This document shows, piece by piece, positions 10,493-32,994 of a stretch of DNA of 44,688 bases. The DNA is from a virus: positions 1 to 44,688 of the IMG/VR virus record IMGVR_UViG_3300028536_000003, one strand, 5' to 3'. The stretch's first letter is position 1. Each line of letters starts with the position of its first letter. A program made the position numbers and the translations under genes. Below the pieces are notes generated by a model, which saw only the letters and a list, made by a program, of their open reading frames with translations, was not told where the DNA came from and ran no database searches.

Positions 10493-10942
10493 CTATTGCC
10501 AAGTGCCACTTTCAATCTGCACCGCCAACCGCTCATAGCGGTTATGCAACTGCTTATAAACCAGCGTCGTGCGCAAATCATCCGTAGCGCCAGTCCAGTT
10601 CTTGGCCCGCATCAGCGCCAAGAATTGCGTGAAGTGCGACAGGCCAACAACGCCCAAGTTAAAGCCCATGTTCACCAGAACACCGCAGCGAGGACCTTGC
10701 GCGCCGTCGAGATTCGTCCACCATGGCACGTAGGTATCCAGCAGATCCCAGACGTGATGCAGATCGGCACTGAATAGCTGATCGCACTGCGCGTCTGTGA
10801 TACCGGCGGCGAATTGCGACGGAATAACGGCGCCGAGCAGATGGCCAATGCCGATGGTCCATAAGCCCTTCGTATCCTTATAAGGCGTTAGGGACTTGCC
10901 CTCATCGCGGGCCAACTGCTCTTCTATATTGGAGATCGTCAT
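10493..10942 (-). CDS. T4-type lysozyme endolysin (GH24)
   Basis: The 149-residue protein cleaves the MurNAc-GlcNAc bond of peptidoglycan. The catalytic triad spacing of T4-type lysozymes is visible: Glu14 in RDEGKS, Asp23 in PYKDTKG and Thr29 in WTIGIGH. The C-terminal lobe contains FNLGVVGLSHFTQFLALMRA. There is no signal or SAR segment at the N-terminus, so the enzyme should need the adjacent holin to reach the cell wall. ATG 10942 overlaps a 16-codon mini-ORF that links it to the tailspike gene. Confidence 0.95.
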   Translation of the reverse strand: MTISNIEEQLARDEGKSLTPYKDTKGLWTIGIGHLLGAVIPSQFAAGITDAQCDQLFSADLHHVWDLLDTYVPWWTNLDGAQGPRCGVLVNMGFNLGVVGLSHFTQFLALMRAKNWTGATDDLRTTLVYKQLHNRYERLAVQIESGTWQ

Positions 10943-13036: not shown

Positions 13037-14101
13037 TCAAAATTGGAAGCCTTCAGCGTTCACCGAGCAAGTGCCGCCGCCTGTAACTCCGGTCAGAGTC
13101 ACCACAATAGCTGTTACCGAAGCAGATGCCGGGATCGGCTGCGCGAAAGACCGCACCTTAGCACTCTGTACCAAAGTGGCCTGAGTAAATTCGTAAGTCT
13201 GCGATCCAGTTATGATCCCGGAAATAACAATGGTTGTATTCGCCGCCGTAGTCGCTTCTGCAAGGCAAGTCACATCGAACCCGGTTATATAGGTAGTCTT
13301 GCTCGCTGCCGAGGCTAGCGTAGCGACCACATTGGAAGTGCTAGCACCATTCGCGCTAGCCGTGATCGGCGTCCCGGTTGCAGTCATGGCAACGCCAGCA
13401 ATTCCGGTAGTAAATCCTGCGGATCTCGCTCTGTCGAAAGAGGTGCCGTTGAAAATTTCCGGATAACTACTGGTGTATAAGGATTGCTGCGAGCCACCCG
13501 CATCCGCAGGTGGATTAATCAAAGGACCATTTACGCTATTGGAGGCAAACAACGTCACGGCAATAGACCCGCGAGTACCAAGTTGAATATCGCCGCGCTG
13601 TCCATTGGTCAGAGTGGGTGCCGTGGTATTGAATACGCCACCGACGCCTACCGGATTTCCTACGGCCGTAGCACCAGAGGCGGCAGCACCGACAACAATC
13701 TGATTTCCGGCTGTATCTGTGGTAATCGTCCGCGCATTCGTTCCATCACTGCCGGCTTGGAGGACGGGATTTCCAGCTACAGCAGACCCGGCCGCACCGG
13801 CGCCGACAACGGGAACATTTACGTTGTTGGCAAGCACTACGGGGATAGACCCTGAAGCCGTGGTTGCCCCCAAGTTGAGAGCTACCCCGCCGAATTCCAG
13901 ATAGACTGGCCAGCCATTCGCGGCAGTGTTTGGAGTCCCCTGGTTAGCGGTAGTGGAGCCGCCCCCGCCCGCCGCAGGAGGACACGGATTCCACGTTGCT
14001 CCTGTATCCGAAGAACAGTAAGTATTCGACGGAGTGGCTGCTAACACATTCCCTGAAACAGAAAGAAGGGCGAGCAGTACAACGAATTTGATTTTATTCA
14101 T
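13037..14101 (-). CDS. Secreted-type tail/fibre-like protein, 354 aa
   Basis: ATG 14101 overlaps the previous stop as TGATG, and the product starts with a clear Sec signal peptide: basic MNKIKF, hydrophobic VVLLALLSVSGNVLA, cleavage after Ala near residue 21. The mature part has two Cys (CSSDTGATWNPC), a Gly/Ser linker and a long low-complexity Ala/Gly/Thr/Val beta-rich body (ARTITTDTAGNQIVVGAAAS). It ends with a jelly-roll-like C-terminus containing two Cys. Phage structural proteins rarely carry signal peptides. It could be exported to the periplasm or surface rather than assembled in virions. Confidence 0.75.
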   Translation of the reverse strand: MNKIKFVVLLALLSVSGNVLAATPSNTYCSSDTGATWNPCPPAAGGGGSTTANQGTPNTAANGWPVYLEFGGVALNLGATTASGSIPVVLANNVNVPVVGAGAAGSAVAGNPVLQAGSDGTNARTITTDTAGNQIVVGAAASGATAVGNPVGVGGVFNTTAPTLTNGQRGDIQLGTRGSIAVTLFASNSVNGPLINPPADAGGSQQSLYTSSYPEIFNGTSFDRARSAGFTTGIAGVAMTATGTPITASANGASTSNVVATLASAASKTTYITGFDVTCLAEATTAANTTIVISGIITGSQTYEFTQATLVQSAKVRSFAQPIPASASVTAIVVTLTGVTGGGTCSVNAEGFQF

Positions 14102-14652
14102 CACAATACCATCCATGCGGGAAGGAGCTTGTTAGCCTTCAAATGAGTCGATGCCCCTTGAAGGGTTAAAGAAAGCGGTGCAAATGGGCCGCAAAAAACG
14201 TCAGACCCGCCGCCAGCGTTGAGGACGATGTTCACGGGGTTGGCGGACGCATCTGTTTTGAAGATCAGGTATTCAAATCCATTCGGTACGCCCGACAATG
14301 CAGGCACATCGAAATTAACTGTCCCGGCCGTGGCGTCGATATAAACTACAACAGAAAGAGCGCCACTCGATCCCGCTCCCAATACTCCCCAGTGTGTCGG
14401 GTCTAGCGGAGGCGCAGTAACGGCATTCGTGACCGGAGAAATGCAGATGTACAGTCCGCTATTCACCGTCGAATATCCCGGGTAAACCACGTAATCATTG
14501 ACGGCGTAATTTCTACCGAAAACAAAACTGCCCCGGTCACTGAAATTGTTTAACCCAAATCCGTAAAAAACGAAGTCGTTGACGGCCTGCACCCACGGTT
14601 GGTCCATAACCGTGTTTTTATCAATCACCAGACCAAGGCTATCCGCGCTCAT
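14101..14652 (-). CDS. Tail-associated binding protein, 183 aa
   Basis: I start at ATG 14652 (TGATG overlap with the upstream stop) rather than 14673. Residues about 45-90 contain NYAVNDYVVYPGYSTV, then LYICISPV and DPTHWGVL, a Y-x-x-G/D-x-V...Y...P...W layout like small carbohydrate-binding modules of the CBM5/12 type found in phage tails. The remaining residues are beta-rich. It lies between the ATP-grasp gene and the secreted-type protein, upstream of the tailspike, so a host-recognition or baseplate role is likely. Confidence 0.65.
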   Translation of the reverse strand: MSADSLGLVIDKNTVMDQPWVQAVNDFVFYGFGLNNFSDRGSFVFGRNYAVNDYVVYPGYSTVNSGLYICISPVTNAVTAPPLDPTHWGVLGAGSSGALSVVVYIDATAGTVNFDVPALSGVPNGFEYLIFKTDASANPVNIVLNAGGGSDVFCGPFAPLSLTLQGASTHLKANKLLPAWMVL

Positions 14653-15968
14653 CAGTACACCCAATCCTTGCAATAGCCATGCTCTTGCAGTTGCGGAAGT
14701 TCATCCTTCAGCCGTTCGCCGATGTCGGTGCGATAGAATGGCGAATTTGGCATACTCACCTTTCCGATGTTCTTGTAGGCTTTCTTTACAGCCTTCGATA
14801 CGCTATCGGCACAGCCAGAAAAAACGGCGACGTAATCACCAGCCGAAACCGGAATTTCGGCATCAACAATCTTATTGCCATCCATCGTCGGCGCGACTCC
14901 CATCATTACCTCTGCCAAGTGCGTGTCGGCTTGGTCTACATCCTCAAGGTGATATATCGGGTATCCGTAAAGCTCTTTGTTCGTGGCCTTGGAATAAGGA
15001 AAGTCCGGTATCGCCATAACGACCCCAGCAACAACCTCCCAATCCACCATCAAAGAACTCTTTCCGTTGCACAAATCAAGCATCCAGTTTGCCACATCAC
15101 CATGATGCACGGAAAACTGAAGTTTTAGGGTTGGATCGCCGGGGCGCGCCGTCCACTCCAAGGGCCAGCATTGGCCATGTTCGTCCATGATCGCTGCCAC
15201 GTCGATATAGCCGATATGGCCCATTGCCATCAGAATTCCCTCACACGGCTTTAACAGGTAATCGGCAAGGGCGGAATCCGGCACATATTTGGCGATTGTG
15301 CCCATTTCCCCGGTAGAGGGTCCGAGTTCTCCATTGAACAGCTTTTTATGCTCGAAATTTTCCAGCCAATACGGCAGAAATCCTTGCGGTCCGATCCACC
15401 CGCCAACGGCAATTTCAACGCCTGGAACGAATTCTTGCAGAATAAACGAATCCTTTAGCTTCCCCAGTTCCTTCCACCGGGTTAACTGAAAGTTCATGTC
15501 GGCGGGATCTTTCGAGACGTAGGAAAGCGCCTTGTTTGGCTCATCGCCATTCGGTTTCGAGACATACCGCTTCCCCGTTTCCCGGACAAACTTGATGGCT
15601 TCGTCGTAGTCATCGAAAGTTTCCCCGGGGATCGTGTCAATGCCGCACTTTTGGAAAACGCCCTGCCCAAACTCCCGGTCCAATTCCAGCCGCGACGACT
15701 GATAGGAGGGGCCGAATACGCATCCGCCCTTTTTCCGGTAGGCGTCCAGTTCCTTTAGAAAGTCGGTGTTATCCGTCAGAAAAACCATATCCGACCATTG
15801 AAGATGCGGCTTCCAGTCCTTGACCATATCGGCAAACCCCTCGCCGATCTTGGAGCGATGGCCGTCATCCTCTGGCTTGATATACCACTTGACCGCGTGA
15901 CCGTCCTCAAGGGCGCGTATGGCGAAGTCCAGGCCCGCGCCGAATCCGTCAATGATGAGGATGTTCAA
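14652..15968 (-). CDS. ATP-grasp enzyme, PurD (GAR synthetase)-like
   Basis: The 438-residue protein has the full order of a phosphoribosylamine-glycine ligase-like ATP-grasp protein. It starts with a nucleotide-fold N-terminus (MNILIIDGFGAGLDFAIRAL), followed by a lid with ATP-binding Lys in KRYVSKPNGDEPNKA (about 132-146). LQEFVPGVEIAVGGWIG and NGELGPSTGEMGT match the GEE-x-S and GPNTGGMG motifs of PurD, and PLEWTARPGDPT matches its metal-binding FNxRFGDPE block. PurD joins glycine to phosphoribosylamine; this homologue diverges and may ligate another amino acid to an amine. It sits inside the virion operon, not with nucleotide genes. The start is TTG (position 15968) with AAGG upstream. 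Confidence 0.8.
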   Translation of the reverse strand: MNILIIDGFGAGLDFAIRALEDGHAVKWYIKPEDDGHRSKIGEGFADMVKDWKPHLQWSDMVFLTDNTDFLKELDAYRKKGGCVFGPSYQSSRLELDREFGQGVFQKCGIDTIPGETFDDYDEAIKFVRETGKRYVSKPNGDEPNKALSYVSKDPADMNFQLTRWKELGKLKDSFILQEFVPGVEIAVGGWIGPQGFLPYWLENFEHKKLFNGELGPSTGEMGTIAKYVPDSALADYLLKPCEGILMAMGHIGYIDVAAIMDEHGQCWPLEWTARPGDPTLKLQFSVHHGDVANWMLDLCNGKSSLMVDWEVVAGVVMAIPDFPYSKATNKELYGYPIYHLEDVDQADTHLAEVMMGVAPTMDGNKIVDAEIPVSAGDYVAVFSGCADSVSKAVKKAYKNIGKVSMPNSPFYRTDIGERLKDELPQLQEHGYCKDWVY

Positions 15969-16091: not shown

Positions 16092-17747
16092 CTACGGCGC
16101 CTGTTGCTTCTGCGCATTGACAAATAGCTCCGGGAAGATCAGCCGCAGCATCGCTTTGTTCTTTTCGTCTCTAGCCGCCGCCCGAATCTGCTGAACGGAC
16201 GCAGTTGGAGCGCCCTTGGGGACTTGGCCGAACATGTTCAGATAGGGTTTTGAAGTGGCCGCAGCCCGCAAGCCGGGGCGCAGCAACATGGACGCTGCCG
16301 CTTCGGCCATTGCGCCGGGATCGCCTGCCAATGCCCGGCCGCCGCCGATCAGCATGGCCGCGCCGGCATCCAACGGGGAAACCTCCTGCTGAATCCCAAC
16401 TTTCTCTGGCGACTGAGCCATTTTCGGGAAGGCCTTGCCGAAAGAGGCCGCTTCCTTCAGCTCGGCAGTTAATGGGCGCCGTGACATGATGCCCGCCAGC
16501 TTGGTAGCGGATACATGCCCGGTAACCGGGTTGAGCGCGGCCTGCACGTCATAGGATTGCGCAATCAGCTTACGGGAGGCTCGCCAATCGTCGCTGAGCG
16601 CTTTCTGCCCATGCTTGGCTAGGTTGTCCTCCACCATCTGGTCAATCGCATCAGCGGCCTTTTTCTGGGCCTTGCCGAGTGCGAGCTTTTCGGGGTCGAT
16701 GCGGTTGGCGTAGTTGGCATTGCCGTCGAAGCGCAGTTTCTTGCTCAGCGCAATCGCTTCGTTGGGGGACATCGAATCGACGGACAGCCCTTTTATCAGA
16801 CCGTCGATCTTTTCGTTTTTGATGAGAGAGGGGAAGGACTTTGCAGCCGCCGCCCACTCTCCGCCGAGTTTGGAGATGCTGTCCTTGTAAGCCTGATTGG
16901 CCTGGAACGGAAGTGGCCACGCGCGGATGTCCTCATAAGCCTGTCCGCCATCCTGTCGCAGCTTTTCCAAAGACTGCGCAGTGATCGGTTCATCTTTCGG
17001 CAATCCAAGTGCCTGCTTCGCTAGTTTGTCAGTGTTCTCTTGATTGATGGCCGAGAAGCGCTGCTGTAGCTTGATTTTTCCGCCGACTCCCTCAACAATC
17101 TTGTTGAGCGCGGAAGGGTTGGCCATGCTAGCGGGGACGCGATAGCCGGCCTGTTGCGCGGCCTGAATAGCGGCATCGTCCCCGGCCCGCACGGCCTGAC
17201 GGGCGGCTTGTCGAGCCGCTGACCGCACGGCAAGGGCGCTGATACTAGCGGCCACTCCTTCTCCAACATACTTGCCGAGTTGTCCGCCTGCCGCCCCCAG
17301 CGCAACGTTTTTGGTTCTCGATTCTCCGTCCCGTACCGGCTGCAAAGCCCCTAGACCGCCACCGATCAGGGCGGCTCCTGCGGCAGTGTTCGCCCCGGGA
17401 ATGAACGCAGTCGGCACGGCAGCAGCAACGGTCCCGGCGATGTCGCCGATCTTGCCAGCCTTGGAACCCATCAAAGCCTGGTCGGCCTCCTTAGTCTCTT
17501 CAAGGGTCGTCTTGCCGCCTGCAATCTGTTTGGCCCCCTCATAAAGATCATGCATACCCTTGCCGACGCCGACTAGCAATCGCTCTCCGGTTCCCATTTC
17601 AGCCAGAGTAGCTTCGGCGCCTTTTTGAGCCGCTGTTTTGTGAATGTCAGGGAAGTTCTTTTGAATGGCCGCAGCCATATCCTGCTGACTCATGCCGTCA
17701 GGGAATTGCAGGTTCCCGACGCCCGGAACGGCAATGGTCTGACTCAT
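16092..17747 (-). CDS. Large DNA-ejection (internal virion) protein, 551 aa
   Basis: The N-terminus AVPGVGNLQFPDGMSQQDMA is a short motif that I recall from phage internal virion proteins and related virion peptidoglycan-hydrolase fusions. An Ala/Gly-rich apolar stretch follows (about 100-165, AGTVAAAVPTAFIPGANTAA), typical of proteins that insert in the envelope on ejection. Then come long charged helices, such as EKLALGKAQKKAADAID. It overlaps the upstream gene by ATGA. It is probably released with the genome to form part of a trans-envelope conduit, like P22 gp16/gp20; no lytic-transglycosylase motif is seen. Confidence 0.75.
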   Translation of the reverse strand: MSQTIAVPGVGNLQFPDGMSQQDMAAAIQKNFPDIHKTAAQKGAEATLAEMGTGERLLVGVGKGMHDLYEGAKQIAGGKTTLEETKEADQALMGSKAGKIGDIAGTVAAAVPTAFIPGANTAAGAALIGGGLGALQPVRDGESRTKNVALGAAGGQLGKYVGEGVAASISALAVRSAARQAARQAVRAGDDAAIQAAQQAGYRVPASMANPSALNKIVEGVGGKIKLQQRFSAINQENTDKLAKQALGLPKDEPITAQSLEKLRQDGGQAYEDIRAWPLPFQANQAYKDSISKLGGEWAAAAKSFPSLIKNEKIDGLIKGLSVDSMSPNEAIALSKKLRFDGNANYANRIDPEKLALGKAQKKAADAIDQMVEDNLAKHGQKALSDDWRASRKLIAQSYDVQAALNPVTGHVSATKLAGIMSRRPLTAELKEAASFGKAFPKMAQSPEKVGIQQEVSPLDAGAAMLIGGGRALAGDPGAMAEAAASMLLRPGLRAAATSKPYLNMFGQVPKGAPTASVQQIRAAARDEKNKAMLRLIFPELFVNAQKQQAP

Positions 17748-19030
17748 TTGAATTTGCCCGTCTTAGGGTCGTAAGTCAGATCGGGCTTCGCATTCGGCGC
17801 AGCGGGCTTCGGGGCATCCGCAGGGGCGTCCCCGCTTGCCGACTTCCGGATGCGCTCGGCAATTGCGTCGCGCTGATCCTTATACGACTTCTTTTTGTTC
17901 TCCATGTCGTTTTTTGCAACATCGACAACGGCCTTGATCTGCCCCGTATTGAAGTACGGAGACAGAATCTCGGAAGCCTCGCGGCGTGCATCTACGGTAG
18001 AACCCTGCGCGCCCGTTGCCCCCCCGATGATCTTGGCGTACTCGTTTGCGCCAGTAAGTAGCGCCGCCACATACGGAGGAATATCCTTGTCACCAAATGA
18101 CGCCTCTCCCTTTTCCACCCATTTATTGACGAAAGGACCAAGATTGGGAACAGCCGCAGGAGCAAGCTGCAAAGCCCGGTCCAAATTCTTGATGGCAGTG
18201 TTCTCGAACGCTTCGGAGGCATCGGCAATCTTCGTGATGTTGTTGAGCGACGCTTGATCGGCCTTGATGCTGGCGGACGTGGCTTGCGAACCGGCAGCGC
18301 CGCCGTGGTCCTTCTGCTTTTCGGCAATCTTGGACATCAGCGCGGCACGGCTGGCATTGTCTCGATACATCGGCGGCATCTTGCCATCATGCGCAATCGC
18401 CCAATCTGCCCAATAGTCCAGAGTATCGGGGTCCAACTTATTGACAGAGCTTCCGGACGACTGCGCTTTATGCTCAGCATTCTCCAAACGGCGTTCTGAG
18501 ATGTCTGCCATTTTCTCTTGATGCGCGGCCATGGCATCATCCTTCTTCGCCTGCTCTGCCTGCTTGGCGAACTGGATCTGATCCCTGATCGGAAGCATTG
18601 CCTTGGCGCGCTGGTCGATCAGCGGCTTGGCACTGGCAAAATCTGGCGGCAATCCGACGAATGCAGTTGGGTCGCGTTGGCGCGCCGCTTCATACGTCTG
18701 CTGGTCCGTAGCCGACAGGAGATTCCGCCCCGCATTCTCTGCCTGCGCCTGCACAGCATCGGCGGTCTGTTTCTGCGTCTGCGCTTCCTTGGACTTCAGC
18801 GCAATCGACTGGCCCGACAGTTCGGCGGCGAGAGTGGGGGAGTAGCGGAAAATGTCGTCTGCCAATTTCTGATACTTGTCGGCGGCCGGCATCTTCGGGT
18901 CGATTTGGGCAGCATCCTGCTTCAGCAGTGAGTCAAGCAATTGCGATTGCTTGTATGCCTGCTGCTGCTGGCCGAACTGGACGCCTTGCTGATAGTCCTG
19001 AACGATTCCTTCAAGCCCCTGCGCCATCAC
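17744..19030 (-). CDS. Ejection protein, coiled-coil rich, 428 aa
   Basis: The N-terminal 60 residues are Gln-rich (GIVQDYQQGVQFGQQQQAYK), followed by long helices with heptad character, for example KQTADAVQAQAENAGRNLL and KKDDAMAAHQEKMADISERR. The C-terminus is Pro/Ala/Lys-rich and disordered. Size, composition and place between two other ejection-type genes match P22-like internal proteins. The start is ATG 19030 or the adjacent 19027, overlapping the preceding gene by 20 bases. Confidence 0.7.
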   Translation of the reverse strand: MMAQGLEGIVQDYQQGVQFGQQQQAYKQSQLLDSLLKQDAAQIDPKMPAADKYQKLADDIFRYSPTLAAELSGQSIALKSKEAQTQKQTADAVQAQAENAGRNLLSATDQQTYEAARQRDPTAFVGLPPDFASAKPLIDQRAKAMLPIRDQIQFAKQAEQAKKDDAMAAHQEKMADISERRLENAEHKAQSSGSSVNKLDPDTLDYWADWAIAHDGKMPPMYRDNASRAALMSKIAEKQKDHGGAAGSQATSASIKADQASLNNITKIADASEAFENTAIKNLDRALQLAPAAVPNLGPFVNKWVEKGEASFGDKDIPPYVAALLTGANEYAKIIGGATGAQGSTVDARREASEILSPYFNTGQIKAVVDVAKNDMENKKKSYKDQRDAIAERIRKSASGDAPADAPKPAAPNAKPDLTYDPKTGKFK

Positions 19031-19616
19031 TGCCTCCTTTCTGGTCTAGCAGGCTATTGATGAGCGCCCAAAGACCGCCGCTTGCTGCTGTAGAACTTGC
19101 GGCAGTGCCTTTGGATGCGCTGCCGCTTAGAAGGCTGCCGAGGCCGCCCAAACTAGTGATGCCGGTCCCGGCACCAGTGCCGCCGCCGTCTACTGAGGCT
19201 CCCAAAGTGGAGCCTCCGACCTGTGAAGCCGTGGCGGTGCCTGCGCCAGACCCGCCACCGCCGCCGATTGACCCGCCGAGCAGTCCGCCGATCTGAGCGC
19301 CGCCAGCACCAAACAGGGAGCCGATGGCGCCGCCGGCAGCGGACCCAGCCGTGGCACCGCTAGCGCCGTCGCTCTGAATCGGCGTCTGGCCGGTCTTACC
19401 GTCATAGACGCCTTTCCGCGCCTCATGCTGCAACCACTCCTTTGAAGCAGCACTGGCGAGTCCGCCGACGCCGGGCACGAACTGAAGGGCGGCCGGGCCT
19501 ACCTTGGACTGCATCCCCATGGTCAGGTAATGCTCGGCCCATTTGTGAGGGTCTTTGAATAGGTCCGTTCCTCGCTTGATCGAGAATTCGGAGCCTAGGT
19601 CTTGGAGCCAGCCCAC
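19011..19616 (-). CDS. Gly-rich ejection-module protein, 201 aa
   Basis: Residues 1-65 are a helical domain (MGWLQDLGSEFSIKRGTDLF... FVPGVGGLASAASKEWLQ). The remainder is a Gly/Ala/Ser repeat region, for example GGAIGSLFGAGGAQIGGLLG, able to cross or line membranes. It ends in a hydrophobic SGGLWALINSLLDQK. Such sequences are common in proteins packaged in podovirus heads and ejected ahead of DNA. Function inferred from composition and neighbours. Confidence 0.65.
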   Translation of the reverse strand: MGWLQDLGSEFSIKRGTDLFKDPHKWAEHYLTMGMQSKVGPAALQFVPGVGGLASAASKEWLQHEARKGVYDGKTGQTPIQSDGASGATAGSAAGGAIGSLFGAGGAQIGGLLGGSIGGGGGSGAGTATASQVGGSTLGASVDGGGTGAGTGITSLGGLGSLLSGSASKGTAASSTAASGGLWALINSLLDQKGGSDGAGA

Positions 19617-19618
19617 CC

Positions 19619-20185
19619 TTACGCCTCAATACCGAGGCCGGGATCGGACGGATAGGGGGTGTTGGAAACGCCGGCACTACCCTGACCGCCGCCAAACAGG
19701 CCGCCCAAACCGCTGAATAGGCCGCCGCCACTACTGCCCGAGCCGCCGAACATGCCCAGAAGGCCGCCAATGCCGCCCAGCGTGTTGCTGGCCTGCCCAT
19801 AGGCCCCTTGCTGGGCTTGAAGCCCTACAGCGGCATAGGCGGGATTTCCAGAGGCCAGCGAGGCAAGATTGCCAAACTGCTGCTGGTAGGTGCTTTGCGC
19901 CAGACCTTGGCCGTATTGAGTTAGAGCAGAGGCGGTATTACCGGAATCGAACATGCCTTTCGCGGCCGAAGATCCCTGAACGGCTTGCTGCCCCTGCTGA
20001 AGCTGAAATTGATAACCCGGCGTGCTGGTAACCGAACTCGGGTTACTAACCAGAGAATTCAGCATTTGCGCATATTGCGCATCATAAGGCTGATTCGGGG
20101 AGCTGTAAGTCGGGTTATTTCCCGAAACGCCGCCGCCGCTCCCGCCGCCTAATACGCTGCCAAGGGCGTTTGTGATGAAACTCAT
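19619..20185 (-). CDS. DNA-transfer (ejection) protein, 188 aa
   Basis: The central block TPGYQFQLQQGQQAVQGSSA followed by SGNTASALTQYGQGLAQSTY matches a widespread phage DNA-transfer/injection protein pattern (PGYxFxLxQGxxAxxxSAAA...SGxxxxALxxYGQ). Gly-rich hydrophobic tracts flank it (LGSVLGGGSGGG; LGGIGGLLGMFGGSGSSGGG). By analogy with P22 gp7 it is packaged and ejected into the cell envelope. Overlaps the acetyltransferase gene by ATGA. Confidence 0.8.
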   Translation of the reverse strand: MSFITNALGSVLGGGSGGGVSGNNPTYSSPNQPYDAQYAQMLNSLVSNPSSVTSTPGYQFQLQQGQQAVQGSSAAKGMFDSGNTASALTQYGQGLAQSTYQQQFGNLASLASGNPAYAAVGLQAQQGAYGQASNTLGGIGGLLGMFGGSGSSGGGLFSGLGGLFGGGQGSAGVSNTPYPSDPGLGIEA

Positions 20186-27272: not shown

Positions 27273-28136
27273 TCAATAGAAGGCGTCGGGCGGGGCGTAT
27301 TTGATATACGACTCTCGGCTCTTGACCATGCCCTTGCTGATGAGTTTGTCGCACGCCTGCTGAAATTCCGGTCGCATCTTCTCGAATGACTTTGGGCCTC
27401 CCGTTGCCTGCCGCTGCGCGTTGGCGCCTTCAAACATGGGCGTCTTCCCGTTGCCATTTTTGCGCCCGAATTTCTCCGGGTATGCGCGCATCGTGCGGTC
27501 GCGGATTTTGCTCAGGAAATCGTCTGCGGCCTCCGGAGAGGCAACCGGGTTGAAGCCCTGCTTCTTGAGCGTATCGGCAACGGAGTCCGCAAAGGACTTC
27601 AGTTCCGGATCTTCGTTGTACCAAGTCGCTTCATCATTGTGCCGCTTGACCACGGCCTGGATTTCGGGCGGGATTTGCGGTGCCCTGCGTTCCTCCTGCC
27701 TCGGTGCCGGCGCTTCGATTTCGCGCAGCTTGGCGTCAGCAGCATCGAATGCATCGGGATCGTTGTTGCGCATGGCCTCCCGGCGTTCGGCGCGCAGAGA
27801 TTCGACGGCGGCAATCTTGGCCCGCTCTTCGATTCCGGTCATGAACTGCTTGGAAGCGTTGATGACTTCCTTGGATTCATCCAACTCGCGCTGCACTTTG
27901 GTCAACTGCTCCTGCAACTGCCGGTTCTCAGCCCGGGCAATCGGGATATAGTCGTCGGCGCGCTCATTCCACTGTTCGGCAGGGCGCCACTTTTCGGGGT
28001 TTCCCTTGAACTTTTCCTTCGGCATCCAGCCGGAACGCTGGGCGCGCACTTCCGCTTCGGTCGGGCCTTGATGTTGCTGTTCGTCGCCGTGGTCGGCGTT
28101 ATCGGGAATCAATTCTTCCGGTAGTGCGTTGTTCAT
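27273..28136 (-). CDS. Scaffolding protein
   Basis: Highly charged, Gln/Glu/Lys/Arg-rich and helical over 287 residues. It carries GWMPKEKFKGNPEKWRPAEQ, a motif common at the start of podovirus scaffolds, then a long coiled coil (NRQLQEQLTKVQRELDESKE). The C-terminus is basic (RTMRAYPEKFGRKNGNGKTP to the end), as needed to bind the capsid inner surface. Located between the GroES-like and capsid genes. Confidence 0.8.
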   Translation of the reverse strand: MNNALPEELIPDNADHGDEQQHQGPTEAEVRAQRSGWMPKEKFKGNPEKWRPAEQWNERADDYIPIARAENRQLQEQLTKVQRELDESKEVINASKQFMTGIEERAKIAAVESLRAERREAMRNNDPDAFDAADAKLREIEAPAPRQEERRAPQIPPEIQAVVKRHNDEATWYNEDPELKSFADSVADTLKKQGFNPVASPEAADDFLSKIRDRTMRAYPEKFGRKNGNGKTPMFEGANAQRQATGGPKSFEKMRPEFQQACDKLISKGMVKSRESYIKYAPPDAFY

Positions 28137-28522
28137 TCGATATCTCCAAAGCTGCCTTGTGCCCGCGCAACGGCGGTTTCCTCTTCGCTCATGGTGAGAA
28201 TGGCGCCGATGTCCAAATCATTAAGCAACCGATAAACGCGGCCGCCGAATTTGTAATTGAGTCCGCTATAGCGAGCGAACAGAACGCGGTCGCCGGTATC
28301 GCACCATTTGAACGGCTGATCTGCCCAAGCGCCGGGTCCGATTTCGACTACGACCCCGCTTTCCTGCGCTACCTGCTCGCGCTCTTTCTGGGTCTTTGGT
28401 CGGACAAGTTTGCTGCCGGCAAAGGTATCCGATACGACATCCGGCATGACCAAGATACGGTGGCCGCCTGGATGTATGCCGATGTCAACAATCGGCGGTT
28501 TGAATTCATGCGGCTTCTGCAT
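28133..28522 (-). CDS. GroES-like co-chaperonin (Cpn10)
   Basis: The 129 residues carry the Cpn10 pattern: HRILVMPDVVSDTFAGSKLV (strands and the mobile-loop region), KEREQVAQESGVVVEIGPGA, then GDRVLFARYSGLNYKFGGRV and VYRLLNDLDIGAIL (the VLxxxYxGxxxxxxxxxYxxxxxxDIxA end). It should cap host GroEL and change the cage for capsid folding, as T4 gp31 does. Lying between portal and scaffold it is timed with head assembly. It overlaps both neighbours (17 and 4 bases). Confidence 0.85.
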   Translation of the reverse strand: MQKPHEFKPPIVDIGIHPGGHRILVMPDVVSDTFAGSKLVRPKTQKEREQVAQESGVVVEIGPGAWADQPFKWCDTGDRVLFARYSGLNYKFGGRVYRLLNDLDIGAILTMSEEETAVARAQGSFGDIE

Positions 28523-28757
28523 GGTCGGCCTCCGGCTCGATGTCGGCGGCTTCGCAAAGCCCTTCGTAGGTCATGGCGATGATCTTGGCCGCCATGAGCG
28601 CCTGCCCAGCAGTTCGGTCTGCCACGCGTTCGGTTTGGTAGCCGTCGTTAAGCCAGTCCTCCGATGCCCGCTCCACCTGCGCCCGCATCCCCTCCTGCAG
28701 CGCTCGCGTCACCGGATGCTCCTGCCACTGCTTGAACTGCTCCCGCTTTATTTCCAT
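28506..28757 (-). CDS. Conserved head-cluster protein overlapping portal 3' end, 83 aa
   Basis: Begins MEIKREQFKQWQEHPVTRAL, a helical pattern (K-x-W-x-x-H-P-V-T-x-x-x) that I recall from small proteins encoded after phage portals. The first 36 codons lie in another frame within the portal gene, an overlap of 110 bases. The overlapped portal end is Gly/Ala low-complexity, suggesting one frame was adapted to the other. Start alternatives (Met24) would still overlap by about 41 bases. Confidence 0.65.
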   Translation of the reverse strand: MEIKREQFKQWQEHPVTRALQEGMRAQVERASEDWLNDGYQTERVADRTAGQALMAAKIIAMTYEGLCEAADIEPEADHAEAA

Positions 28758-30864
28758 CGTCTTTCTCCGTCATGCCTTGAACCATTTGGTGAAGTATCTT
28801 TGCCGCCTCTACCATGCCTGTTTGTTTCATCTTTGCCGCGCCAAGTTCGATATTGAGCATTTCGACCACTTGGCCCAAATGCGCCGCATCGCCCTTCTTT
28901 GCTTCCATGGAAGCTTTGGCTTCCAATTCCATGATTTTCGCCGCGTTCAAATCGATGTCTTGCAGCAGTGTTGCGATCCTGATCTTGGCGTCTAACTGGA
29001 AGGTCATTTCCTTCAACTGCTGCGCCTTCTGCTTGATTTCGATTTCCATCAACTTCGGATTCGGTGCCGGTGGAAGCGCATGCGGCCCCTTCGGGTCCGG
29101 CATTACCTTGTCGATGCCAACGATCTGGTATGCCTCCATGTAGGCGCGCTTGACCTCGTACATGTCGCACTGAGCGCCGGGGATGCCGGATGCACGAAGC
29201 AGGGCTTCGGCGCGCTGCATCCTGACCGCATCCGACATGACATAAGGATCAGCCGAAGGCCGGACAGATTTTTCGTCCTCTTCATAGTCCTGCGGCTGAG
29301 CGTTGAAGGGGTTGTCCGGCATTTCGTCTAGATAGATGCTATTCAGGACGTAGAGTTTCCGGAACTCATTCTTCATGGCACGATGCGTACGCTTGAAGAT
29401 GGCGCCGAATACGCGCAGGCCGTTGGCTTCCGCAATCTGCGAGGTGGATGCCGGTGTGTTCTGCCCGGGAGTCTGACCGACCTGAATGTCCGTGGCGCCG
29501 GCAACGCGCTCGCCGTAGTTGATGAGCAAGTTCAGAAGTTGGAACAGGACATTCGACGGCTCCCGCACCGGCAGAGGCACGATATTGTTTTTCAATTCGG
29601 CGCCGGGGGAATCCACCTGTTTCCATTCGTTTGGCTTGAAATACATCGTGCCGCCGCGAATCTTGATGCCGCGCCCCAAGAAACCGCCGGATGTGTTGGA
29701 CATCGTTCCGGAGTCGATCAATTGATTGATCAGGGTGCTGGTCGCTTCATTCAGATGGCCTAGAAGCAGACCGAAGCCGACATCATAGAAGCCGCCATCG
29801 AACGCTGGTATGAACGGATACTTTGTGAAGCAGTGCACCGGCTCAATCCGCATGATCTGTGGAATCTTGCCTTTCGGCGTCTCGGCCCGGTAGCGGGCAA
29901 GCGACTGCCGATTTTCCAGAGTGACGCGTTTGGATGTGAAGCGAGCCACGATGCGCTTGACGATTCTGGACTGACGGTGAACCGTGACCACGTAGGGTTC
30001 TTTGTAGCCGTCTCCGTCCAAGTCCTCCCATCGGTGTTGCTCGACAAACTCACGCGGCGCGGACTTATCGGACAACGGCGGTTGTGTGCCCTGCGATGTG
30101 TTGCGGGTCACGCTATTCTGGTTGTCTACTGCGGTCGTGCTATCCGGCGGGATCGGTATATCTCTGAAAATTGCAAGGACTTCTCGCTCGTAGATGTCGT
30201 TATCGCTTAGCTTGATCTTGTGGCTGATACGGGATGCTGTCTCGAACGATTGCGTCCAGTAATCGACCACAAGATTTTCCGGCATGACCAGCCGGGATAC
30301 GTTCTTTCTGGTCAGCGGGTCGAAATAGGATTTTTTGAAGGCATCGCCCATGATGGCCTGTACCAGCATGGCCTTATCCTGATTGTCCTCCCACGTCTCG
30401 TCCTCTTCCTCAAGCTGCCAGGTCATGTGCTTGGAAATCAGCTTGCCGCGCACGTTCTTGGCGCCGTCAGGGTCTGGGCCGTAGGTTCGATACTCGACAA
30501 TTTCCCCCGGCGGCATCAGCAGGGCATAGGCCCGCGCATGCCACTGGAGTGCAGCGATGGTGATCAGCGGAAACTTTACCGATGAAGCACCCGGCCAAGG
30601 AAAGGATTTTTCCTCTACGACTTGGCGGGTTACTTTGATTGCTTCGTTGTTGCGTCGGTCCCACTCGACGCGGGAGTTTTCATCTAGTTCCAGCTCATCG
30701 CAGACGCGCTTGCCCAGATCCATCAGCCAAGCATCGTCCAGCATGTCGCAGACGTTGGGGGACTGAAGAATTTCTTCTAGGTTCAGCTTTGGCGATTCGG
30801 ACGGCCCGGTAGCGTTGGCCTGACCGTTTACGGGAACGTTGACGACGCCTTGTTTTTCTTTCAC
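28648..30864 (-). CDS. Portal protein, 738 aa
   Basis: A large P22-class portal. LMDLGKRVCDELELDENSRV is near residue 50, FPWPGASSVKFPLITIAALQ near 90 and WQLEEEDETWEDNQDKAMLV near 150; QVGQTPGQNTPASTSQIAEA sits around 475-495. A C-terminal helical barrel/coiled-coil stretch (EIKQKAQQLKEMTFQLDAKI, AKASMEAKKGDAAHLGQVVE) precedes a Gly/Ala tail. Twelve copies should form the DNA channel at one capsid vertex and dock the terminase and gp4-like protein. It overlaps the upstream gene by ATGA. Confidence 0.92.
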   Translation of the reverse strand: MKEKQGVVNVPVNGQANATGPSESPKLNLEEILQSPNVCDMLDDAWLMDLGKRVCDELELDENSRVEWDRRNNEAIKVTRQVVEEKSFPWPGASSVKFPLITIAALQWHARAYALLMPPGEIVEYRTYGPDPDGAKNVRGKLISKHMTWQLEEEDETWEDNQDKAMLVQAIMGDAFKKSYFDPLTRKNVSRLVMPENLVVDYWTQSFETASRISHKIKLSDNDIYEREVLAIFRDIPIPPDSTTAVDNQNSVTRNTSQGTQPPLSDKSAPREFVEQHRWEDLDGDGYKEPYVVTVHRQSRIVKRIVARFTSKRVTLENRQSLARYRAETPKGKIPQIMRIEPVHCFTKYPFIPAFDGGFYDVGFGLLLGHLNEATSTLINQLIDSGTMSNTSGGFLGRGIKIRGGTMYFKPNEWKQVDSPGAELKNNIVPLPVREPSNVLFQLLNLLINYGERVAGATDIQVGQTPGQNTPASTSQIAEANGLRVFGAIFKRTHRAMKNEFRKLYVLNSIYLDEMPDNPFNAQPQDYEEDEKSVRPSADPYVMSDAVRMQRAEALLRASGIPGAQCDMYEVKRAYMEAYQIVGIDKVMPDPKGPHALPPAPNPKLMEIEIKQKAQQLKEMTFQLDAKIRIATLLQDIDLNAAKIMELEAKASMEAKKGDAAHLGQVVEMLNIELGAAKMKQTGMVEAAKILHQMVQGMTEKDDGNKAGAVQAVAGASGDASAAGGDAGAGGAGIGGLA

Positions 30865-31530: not shown

Positions 31531-32994
31531 TCATCCGCCGTATCCGCAGACGCCGCGCGCATATTCCTGCGGCCGGTCGCGCTCGATGTCCTCCTGTTCT
31601 ATTTCCACATCGGTAGAGGACTCCGATACCTGATCGGCCATCATGCCGAACTGAGACATGCAATCGACCTGATCATCATGTTTGGACTTCGGAAACCGTG
31701 TTATTTCGTCCTCGAAAATCGCCCACCAATCGGCGTCCTTGTCGAATAGCCAGGAACCGGACTTGAGCATGGCCTGCACGCCCTTGCTGCGCGCTATCTT
31801 GTCCTGCCCTACCGGCTGCGGCACGGCATGGATGTTCAGGAATATTTGCCGCTTCTGCATTTCTGCATTGAGAAACGGGCTAATTGATTTCTCAATCGTG
31901 CCGCCTTCGATGATGAATAGTTGGGGATCGTAGATCTGCTGAATGTCGAACAGCTCGCCAACTATTTCCAGTCCGTCGATACGGGCGCGGCGGCAATCGA
32001 CCAAGGACCAGATGCCATCCGCACCTACGCCGGCCACCAGCATGACGGTCCAGTCACCGTGGCTGCGCTTGGTGATGGCGAGATCACAGGACACATAGAA
32101 GGTGCGGCCGCGCTTGACCTGAAAGAAGCGATGATCCTGTTCCGTCATCGGCCGCAGCCAATTCTTTTTGAATAGGGTGACGGAGGCGTCTACCGGGTCA
32201 TTCAGATATTCCTGCGCGTAGCCTTCCAGATTTCCATCTGCGGCGAACTCGGAGCGGATGGCAAGTAAACGTTCCTTGGGGAACATTTCTTCCCATAGGA
32301 TGGCGCCGAAGTCCGGGCTATGGGCCGCATAGCGTTTGCTGTTCCAGAGGGCGCGCTTGAGCAGGTTTTCCAGCAGTGAATCGGTGTGCAGGATGGTGCC
32401 GATGATGCGGTACTTGGTCTTTCGGCTGCCGACCTGCAAAAGCGCATTCTGAAACCAGCGCTTGAACTTTCGGCGGCGGTCCGGGTTCTCCACGGACTCG
32501 TCGGTTTCCATGTCGTCCCCGATGACCCGATCCGGACGACGACCGCGCCACTTGATGCCGCGAATCTTCTGTTCGGCGCCCTTGCCTAGAAACCGGAAGA
32601 TGCCGTTAGTGCATCGGACGATGATTTCGGTTTCGGTCTCCTTCAAAAACTCCGGCTGGAAGTCCTCTTTGATCGCCTCGTTTTCCTGTAGCTCCTTCTT
32701 CAGCTCGCCGATGAAGTTCTTGACCAACTCTTCGGTGGCGGTGACGATCAGAAAGAACGAGGCTTCGCCGAATAGGGCTTCGGCCAAGGCGGCGGCAAAG
32801 GTGATGCTGGTCGATTTCGCATGCCCGCGCGGAGCAGCCAAGGCGCCTTTGCTGATCGGAGCGCAATACCATTCCCACCATTCCTGGTGACAGGTTGGGA
32901 TCGATACAGAATCGTCGTAACGGTCCAGCAGGTATTCGCGGACGAATCCTTCAATGACCTGTGCGTCTATACCGCCGTATTCTTCTTCACTCAA
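31531..32994 (-). CDS. terL: Terminase large subunit
   Basis: The 487-residue packaging motor and nuclease starts at TTG 32994, in frame with MSEEEYGGID and overlapping the previous ORF by 8 bases. A Walker-A-like PRGHAKST lies at residues 55-62 and Walker B VIGDDME at about 157-163. The coupling segment RIIGTILHTDSLLENLL follows. The RNase-H-like nuclease has FYVSCDLAITKRSHGDWTVM (Asp304), FIIEGGTIEKSISP and a final Asp in KSKHDDQVDCMSQF. Works with the small subunit at 33160 and the portal; headful packaging would fit a map with no defined ends. Confidence 0.93.
   Translation of the reverse strand: MSEEEYGGIDAQVIEGFVREYLLDRYDDSVSIPTCHQEWWEWYCAPISKGALAAPRGHAKSTSITFAAALAEALFGEASFFLIVTATEELVKNFIGELKKELQENEAIKEDFQPEFLKETETEIIVRCTNGIFRFLGKGAEQKIRGIKWRGRRPDRVIGDDMETDESVENPDRRRKFKRWFQNALLQVGSRKTKYRIIGTILHTDSLLENLLKRALWNSKRYAAHSPDFGAILWEEMFPKERLLAIRSEFAADGNLEGYAQEYLNDPVDASVTLFKKNWLRPMTEQDHRFFQVKRGRTFYVSCDLAITKRSHGDWTVMLVAGVGADGIWSLVDCRRARIDGLEIVGELFDIQQIYDPQLFIIEGGTIEKSISPFLNAEMQKRQIFLNIHAVPQPVGQDKIARSKGVQAMLKSGSWLFDKDADWWAIFEDEITRFPKSKHDDQVDCMSQFGMMADQVSESSTDVEIEQEDIERDRPQEYARGVCGYGG

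Follow-up and report, generated by a model that had tools for sequence, protein, structure and literature searches.

The window, i.e. the whole 44,688-nucleotide stretch of viral DNA analysed here, encodes on its minus strand a 438-residue PurD-like protein (Table 1). The gene is real, and the plus-strand frame at the same positions contains several stops. Its TTG is the likely start codon, as originally predicted, because the aligned relatives start at the same residue, TTG is also the start codon in 10 of the 154 relatives for which a start was called, and a GAAGG sequence is present 9 nt upstream. The predicted setting between ejection and host-recognition genes was also found, with ejection-type proteins encoded at 16092-20185 on one side and a tailspike gene on the other. 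A Pfam scan of the 58 ORFs of the window revealed no second purine gene among the families listed (25 of 26), in line with the earlier reading.

Table 1. Genes of the window considered in this work (positions are those of the window)
Feature	Position	Strand	Basis or remark
Lysozyme/endolysin	10493..10942	-	PF00959, 4.7e-13
Pectin-lyase-like tailspike, 672 aa	10989..13007	-	phrog_32881, 2.4e-9
359-aa protein, signal-peptide-like N-terminus	13037..14116	-	Sequence; no family match
190-aa protein, next downstream of the ligase gene	14101..14673	-	ORF list; overlaps the ligase gene by 22 nt; no family match
PurD-like ATP-grasp ligase (predicted), 438 aa, TTG start	14652..15968	-	Homology, AF2 model, alignment
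Large internal/ejection protein C-like, 551 aa	16092..17747	-	Similar to 'putative internal protein C' of Xanthomonas phage PBR31
Internal/ejection protein B-like, 428 aa	17744..19030	-	Cluster 27 of the synteny table
DNA-ejection protein, 188 aa, cassette A position	19619..20185	-	phrog_598, 5.2e-7; synteny cluster 2
GNAT acetyltransferase of the cassette, 144 aa	20182..20616	-	phrog_1249 (acetyltransferase), 2.6e-8
Portal protein	28648..30864	-	phrog_1216, 1e-13
Small HExxE protein, 135 aa	30861..31268	-	Homologue of a recurrent PurD-like neighbour; overlaps the portal start by 4 nt
Terminase large subunit	31531..32994	-	phrog_38, 1.3e-76

Both ends of the contig (1-166 and 44585-44688) carry an identical 27-bp tandem repeat. 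It is thus probable that the contig breaks off within a single array, at which point the genome may be close to complete or closed into a circle. A GroES/Cpn10-like Pfam match (PF00166, 1.2e-9) probably corresponds to the ORF at 28133-28522 (minus strand), which adjoins the portal gene; an annotated chaperonin 10 is likewise encoded near the portal gene of the Manatee Spring phage MW202796.

The PurD-like ORF was predicted with exact coordinates, and profile searches agree with its assignment. The protein matches Pfam GARS_A (1.9e-10), with a GARS_C match under its own threshold and GARS_N unmatched in the same scan. The NCBIfam purD profile (TIGR00877) gave an E-value of 3.2e-26, but the score of 92 bits is under the 288-bit cut-off. 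A phmmer search of the PDB yielded 2.8e-21. Judged from these sequence matches, the homology with PurD is far beyond chance. The protein has no PHROG match. Its AF2 model (pLDDT 93.2, pTM 0.91) has the ATP-grasp fold, and together with the ATP-binding Lys and Glu residues described below it places the protein in this superfamily. In a structural search of the PDB the best 15 matches were all GAR synthetases, with E-values down to 2.3e-31, followed, well behind, by biotin carboxylases and by PurK and PurT, which belong to the same superfamily but are weaker structural matches (about 1e-17 vs 1e-31). A structural search of BFVD returned only generic ATP-grasp proteins and no full-length PurD-like protein.

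Residues kept and changed relative to PurD

We used the substrate-contacting residues reported for Aquifex PurD (PMC8880213) and transferred them by profile alignment. The ATP residues Lys143, Glu192 and Lys214 of the Aquifex enzyme are kept in the window protein as Lys138, Glu185 and Lys208, and Glu100 is kept as Glu95, the carboxylate-binding Arg287 as Arg275, and the metal-binding Glu as Glu271. The second member of the metal-binding Glu-x-Asn pair, Asn285, is replaced by Thr273; this residue is Thr in all relatives and Asn in 18 of 18 canonical PurDs. The proposal that the protein retains the ATP-binding and metal blocks of GAR synthetase thus holds for the ATP residues and the metal Glu, and fails for the metal Asn.

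A comparison of the glycine and phosphoribosylamine pockets with those of PurD had been suggested; run by alignment, it showed that both sites are changed. The acidic glycine ligands Asp212 and Glu292 are replaced by Glu206 and by Leu, Thr, Cys or Ala at position 280, respectively, and Lys103 by Arg98. The Gly of PurD at position 221 is replaced by Glu and the Tyr at position 256 mostly by Asp, and the N-terminal GGREHA loop is absent from the window protein and its relatives. At these changed positions, 18 canonical PurDs differ from 93 relatives with almost no exceptions. The PurD signature R-[LF]-G-D-P-E-x-[EQIM] (PS00184, as given in PMC3261824) is not matched either, the corresponding sequence being R-P-G-D-P-T-L-K in the window protein and R-P-G-W-P-L in most relatives. 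What the ligase shares with PurD (TIGR00877; PDB 2YS6, 2YW2 and 1GSO) is whole-length homology, the fold, the ATP-grasp residues, the carboxylate Arg and a C-terminal R-x-D-I-[GA] motif; it differs by these substitutions, the missing loop and a score under the curated cut-off.

None of the 66 non-redundant phage relatives retains the GGREHA loop, the two acidic glycine ligands or the metal Asn of PurD, and Lys138, Glu185, Lys208, Glu271 and Arg275 are invariant in all 66. The key positions are fixed save for some variation at 142, 146, 256, 278, 280, 288 and 350. The same five residues are kept in 69 cellular relatives. A catalytically dead structural protein with a retained fold would be in keeping with the location in a virion operon, but the invariance of these residues in both sets makes it very improbable. 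The gene is also under strong purifying selection, with dN/dS values of about 0.03-0.16 across 14 pairs.

In our phylogenetic tree, canonical PurDs are split from all other sequences with full support. A true PurD, scoring above the cut-off, is also encoded in 26 of the 42 cellular genomes that hold a relative. In at least six small genomes the relative is the sole PurD-type match, although a PurD missing from an incomplete genome is weak evidence by itself. That the window protein is a genuine GAR synthetase, encoded by an auxiliary metabolic gene for purine synthesis, would agree with its fold and family match and with viral purD genes reported as such (PMC11097641, PMC11360552, PMC12043954). 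Nevertheless, the low purD score, the unmatched GARS_N, the changed glycine-site and N-terminal loop residues in every member, the frequent presence of a true PurD alongside and the occurrence of relatives in small genomes where no PurD match exceeds the cut-off make this extremely improbable. The conclusion that the gene of the window is not a purine gene, which the original prediction had anticipated, is well supported by the changed substrate sites, the coexistence with true PurD and the tie to virion genes. Comparable proteins were described in haloarchaea, where the 'extra' PurD-like proteins Hlac_1553 and rrnAC0307, devoid of GARS_N, of the Asp of R[LF]GDPE and of a normal N-terminal loop, were judged not to be GAR synthetases (PMC3261824). 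Going by this description alone, their losses are similar to those of the window family, but they are cellular proteins with no noted link to virion genes.

Relatives in viruses and cells

A viral scan with the window protein as sole query found nothing, whereas a two-sequence profile was successful. With a profile of twelve relatives, we found that at least 529 IMG/VR contigs encode members of the family. They are located in the structural module, most often directly after the ejection-protein genes. In the branch to which the window belongs, the gene order is head-completion protein, gp10-like protein, often a GNAT protein, ejection proteins A, B and C, then the ligase, followed by fibre and lysis genes. 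The ligase gene and the large ORF upstream of it share exactly 4 nt in 98 of 156 loci, and in 37 of 66 when redundancy is removed; the window differs in that a 123-nt gap separates the ligase gene from the protein C-like gene directly upstream. The C-termini of the upstream ejection proteins were considered as a ligation substrate and ruled out, as they are not conserved; their Glu/Gln-rich ends probably result from the 4-nt overlap and the ribosome-binding sequence.

In one freshwater lineage, all 25 loci of sufficient length carry the ligase gene. Prophage carriers of the gene include Paraburkholderia, a culturable host. The cassette of Xanthomonas phage PBR31 is the same but has no ligase gene, which indicates that this ejection machinery as such can do without the ligase, and that the gene belongs to the core of some lineages and is missing from others. 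Of note, an acetyltransferase is encoded at the same cassette place in PBR31. Divergent relatives adjoin the portal gene (two loci) or connector genes (one locus) instead. Near one of the portal-adjacent relatives (L324, 1739-2975), we noted by eye a ParB-like gene and a gene similar to Mom-type DNA-modification acyltransferases. Another relative (L374, 7995-9302, and L387), on a contig of 73 kb, has small unknown genes beside it and is not part of any obvious structural module.

The overlap with the last ejection-protein gene suggests translational coupling, which would suit an enzyme that is itself packaged and ejected and acts on a host target right after entry. However, no targeting feature was found in the ligase and the portal-adjacent versions fit less well, making this quite unlikely.

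Between the window and MW202796, the ligase (42%), terminase (41%) and portal protein (44%) are conserved to similar extents, and ejection proteins B and C are unrecognisable. The ligase gene carries no annotation in the deposited MW202796 genome. A gene of its tail region (MW202796.1, 34127-34372) is annotated as 'ubiquitin'.

The cellular relatives are patchily distributed: a relative is encoded in 9 of the 145 genomes from one candidate-phylum group and in 7 of the 149 from the phylum of a Planctomycetota member, and no conserved operon was found at their loci. In the tree, viral sequences connect the phage branches with the cellular ones, and the cellular clade nests among viral clades when the tree is rooted. 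Transfer from virus to cell is nevertheless a tentative reading, as a topology with all viral sequences together was not rejected (p-AU 0.06). One candidate-phylum genome carries two tandem PurD-like genes. A lysyltransferase-like LPG_synthase_C/GNAT gene is present near the PurD-like gene in five cellular loci, which is insufficient to assign a role from this neighbour. SET-domain-like genes were seen by eye in two loci, one of them among these five.

Recurrent HExxE neighbour and proposed function

The small HExxE protein of the window has no significant Pfam or PHROG family. Its homologues adjoin PurD-like genes in a candidate-phylum bacterium, in three Micrarchaeota loci, in a prophage and in two viruses. 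In loci anchored on the HExxE gene, a PurD-like gene is present in 32 of 80 viral cases. After removal of near-copies, 15 of 16 pairs lie within 773 nt, mostly within 42 nt and on the same strand, with the gene order reversed in two. Among the 42 whole genomes, four encode the HExxE protein, and in three of these about 0.8 kb at most separates its gene from the PurD-like one. The pair is located after the ejection genes in four loci and between the terminase and portal genes (roles assigned by eye) in three; the window has one gene of the pair at each of these places. Anchored on the ligase, the association is weak, as only 3 of 207 loci have an HExxE gene no further than 10 kb away, indicating that the partner is optional or often encoded elsewhere.

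His50, Glu51, Glu54, Asp72, His98 and Glu106 are invariant in the HExxE family. The structure model (pLDDT 95.6) gave no significant match in a PDB fold search (best E-value 0.53). From the HExxE motif and weak matches that include several zincins, our guess is that this protein is a zincin-like metalloenzyme. One can then imagine a two-gene 'write and erase' module in phage structural operons, in which the PurD-derived ligase and a zincin-like hydrolase would reversibly tag a virion or host molecule, with the candidate-phylum bacterial and archaeal copies descending from viruses; we consider this scenario unlikely.

In the window, the ligase gene lies in the interval that follows the last ejection gene and precedes the tailspike gene, and a lysozyme gene is found downstream. 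The corresponding interval of P22 carries superinfection-exclusion and immunity genes. The ligase might thus be a late host-envelope enzyme that modifies a cell-wall or surface precursor, aiding lysis or excluding other phages, which would explain the proximity of tailspike and lysis genes. Cell-wall hydrolase lookalikes, identified by eye between the HExxE and ligase genes of three loci, are consistent with such a role. It is nonetheless rather unlikely, as the coupling is to ejection or portal-region genes and not to lysis genes, the HExxE-ligase pairs between terminase and portal genes lie away from lysis genes, and the closest PDB matches are GAR synthetases and not D-Ala ligases.

With its PurD fold, conserved ATP site, changed substrate sites and fixed place in virion operons, the protein is very likely a catalytic ligase other than a GAR synthetase, expressed with virion genes. 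The changed PurD substrate residues and the virion-gene setting in hundreds of viruses indicate that this uncharacterised ligase probably joins something other than the PurD substrates. The explanation that we favour as a whole, at slightly better than an even chance, is that of an active, PurD-derived ATP-grasp carboxylate-amine ligase distinct from GAR synthetase and synthesised late, alongside the virion proteins. Going by its ATP-grasp homologues, it would use ATP and Mg to convert a carboxylate held by Arg275 to an acyl phosphate, and this would in turn be attacked by an amine other than phosphoribosylamine; the alteration of both the glycine and phosphoribosylamine sites argues that both reaction partners differ from those of PurD. 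The ligase would be made together with ejection or portal proteins, and this late co-expression favours as its most likely target a virion component, for instance a protein of the ejection apparatus or the connector, or else a small molecule required in assembly or entry. In some members it may work with the small HExxE protein, probably a metal-dependent partner. A virion component as the target is a tentative proposal, somewhat short of an even chance. Late expression is also typical of lysis and host-modifying genes, so a late operon position is no proof of a virion target. The PBR31 cassette with no ligase gene and the relative outside the structural module also count against the favoured explanation. 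As for the original suggestion that an amino acid may be ligated to a component of the cell wall, the tail or the DNA, such a putative reaction is compatible with ATP-grasp chemistry and with the gene position.

Surveys of snow, ocean and vents have counted viral purD genes as auxiliary metabolic genes (PMC11097641, PMC11360552, PMC12043954), and genes of the present family may be mislabelled as purine-metabolism genes. If some of the survey genes belong to it, the inference of auxiliary metabolism is wrong for those. The family is found on at least 529 contigs and is mostly virion-adjacent in the loci examined, yet the window protein has no PHROG and would be read, if at all, as purD. In the literature covered, mostly outside subscription journals, we found no published PurD-like phage ligase in virion operons. 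The proposed function would link phage assembly or genome ejection with covalent chemistry, a connection of which little is known, and a defined enzyme and a candidate partner are now at hand.

Other ligases of these superfamilies are encoded by phages. The phage amidoligase and ATP-grasp clusters (Iyer 2009, as cited in PMC10580990) are, as far as that citation goes, similar in that their substrates are unknown. The LUZ24-like phage UFV-P2 also encodes an ATP-grasp protein (291 residues), but its gene belongs to the early region, where amidoligase and amidotransferase genes are found nearby, and not to the virion module (PMC3890496).
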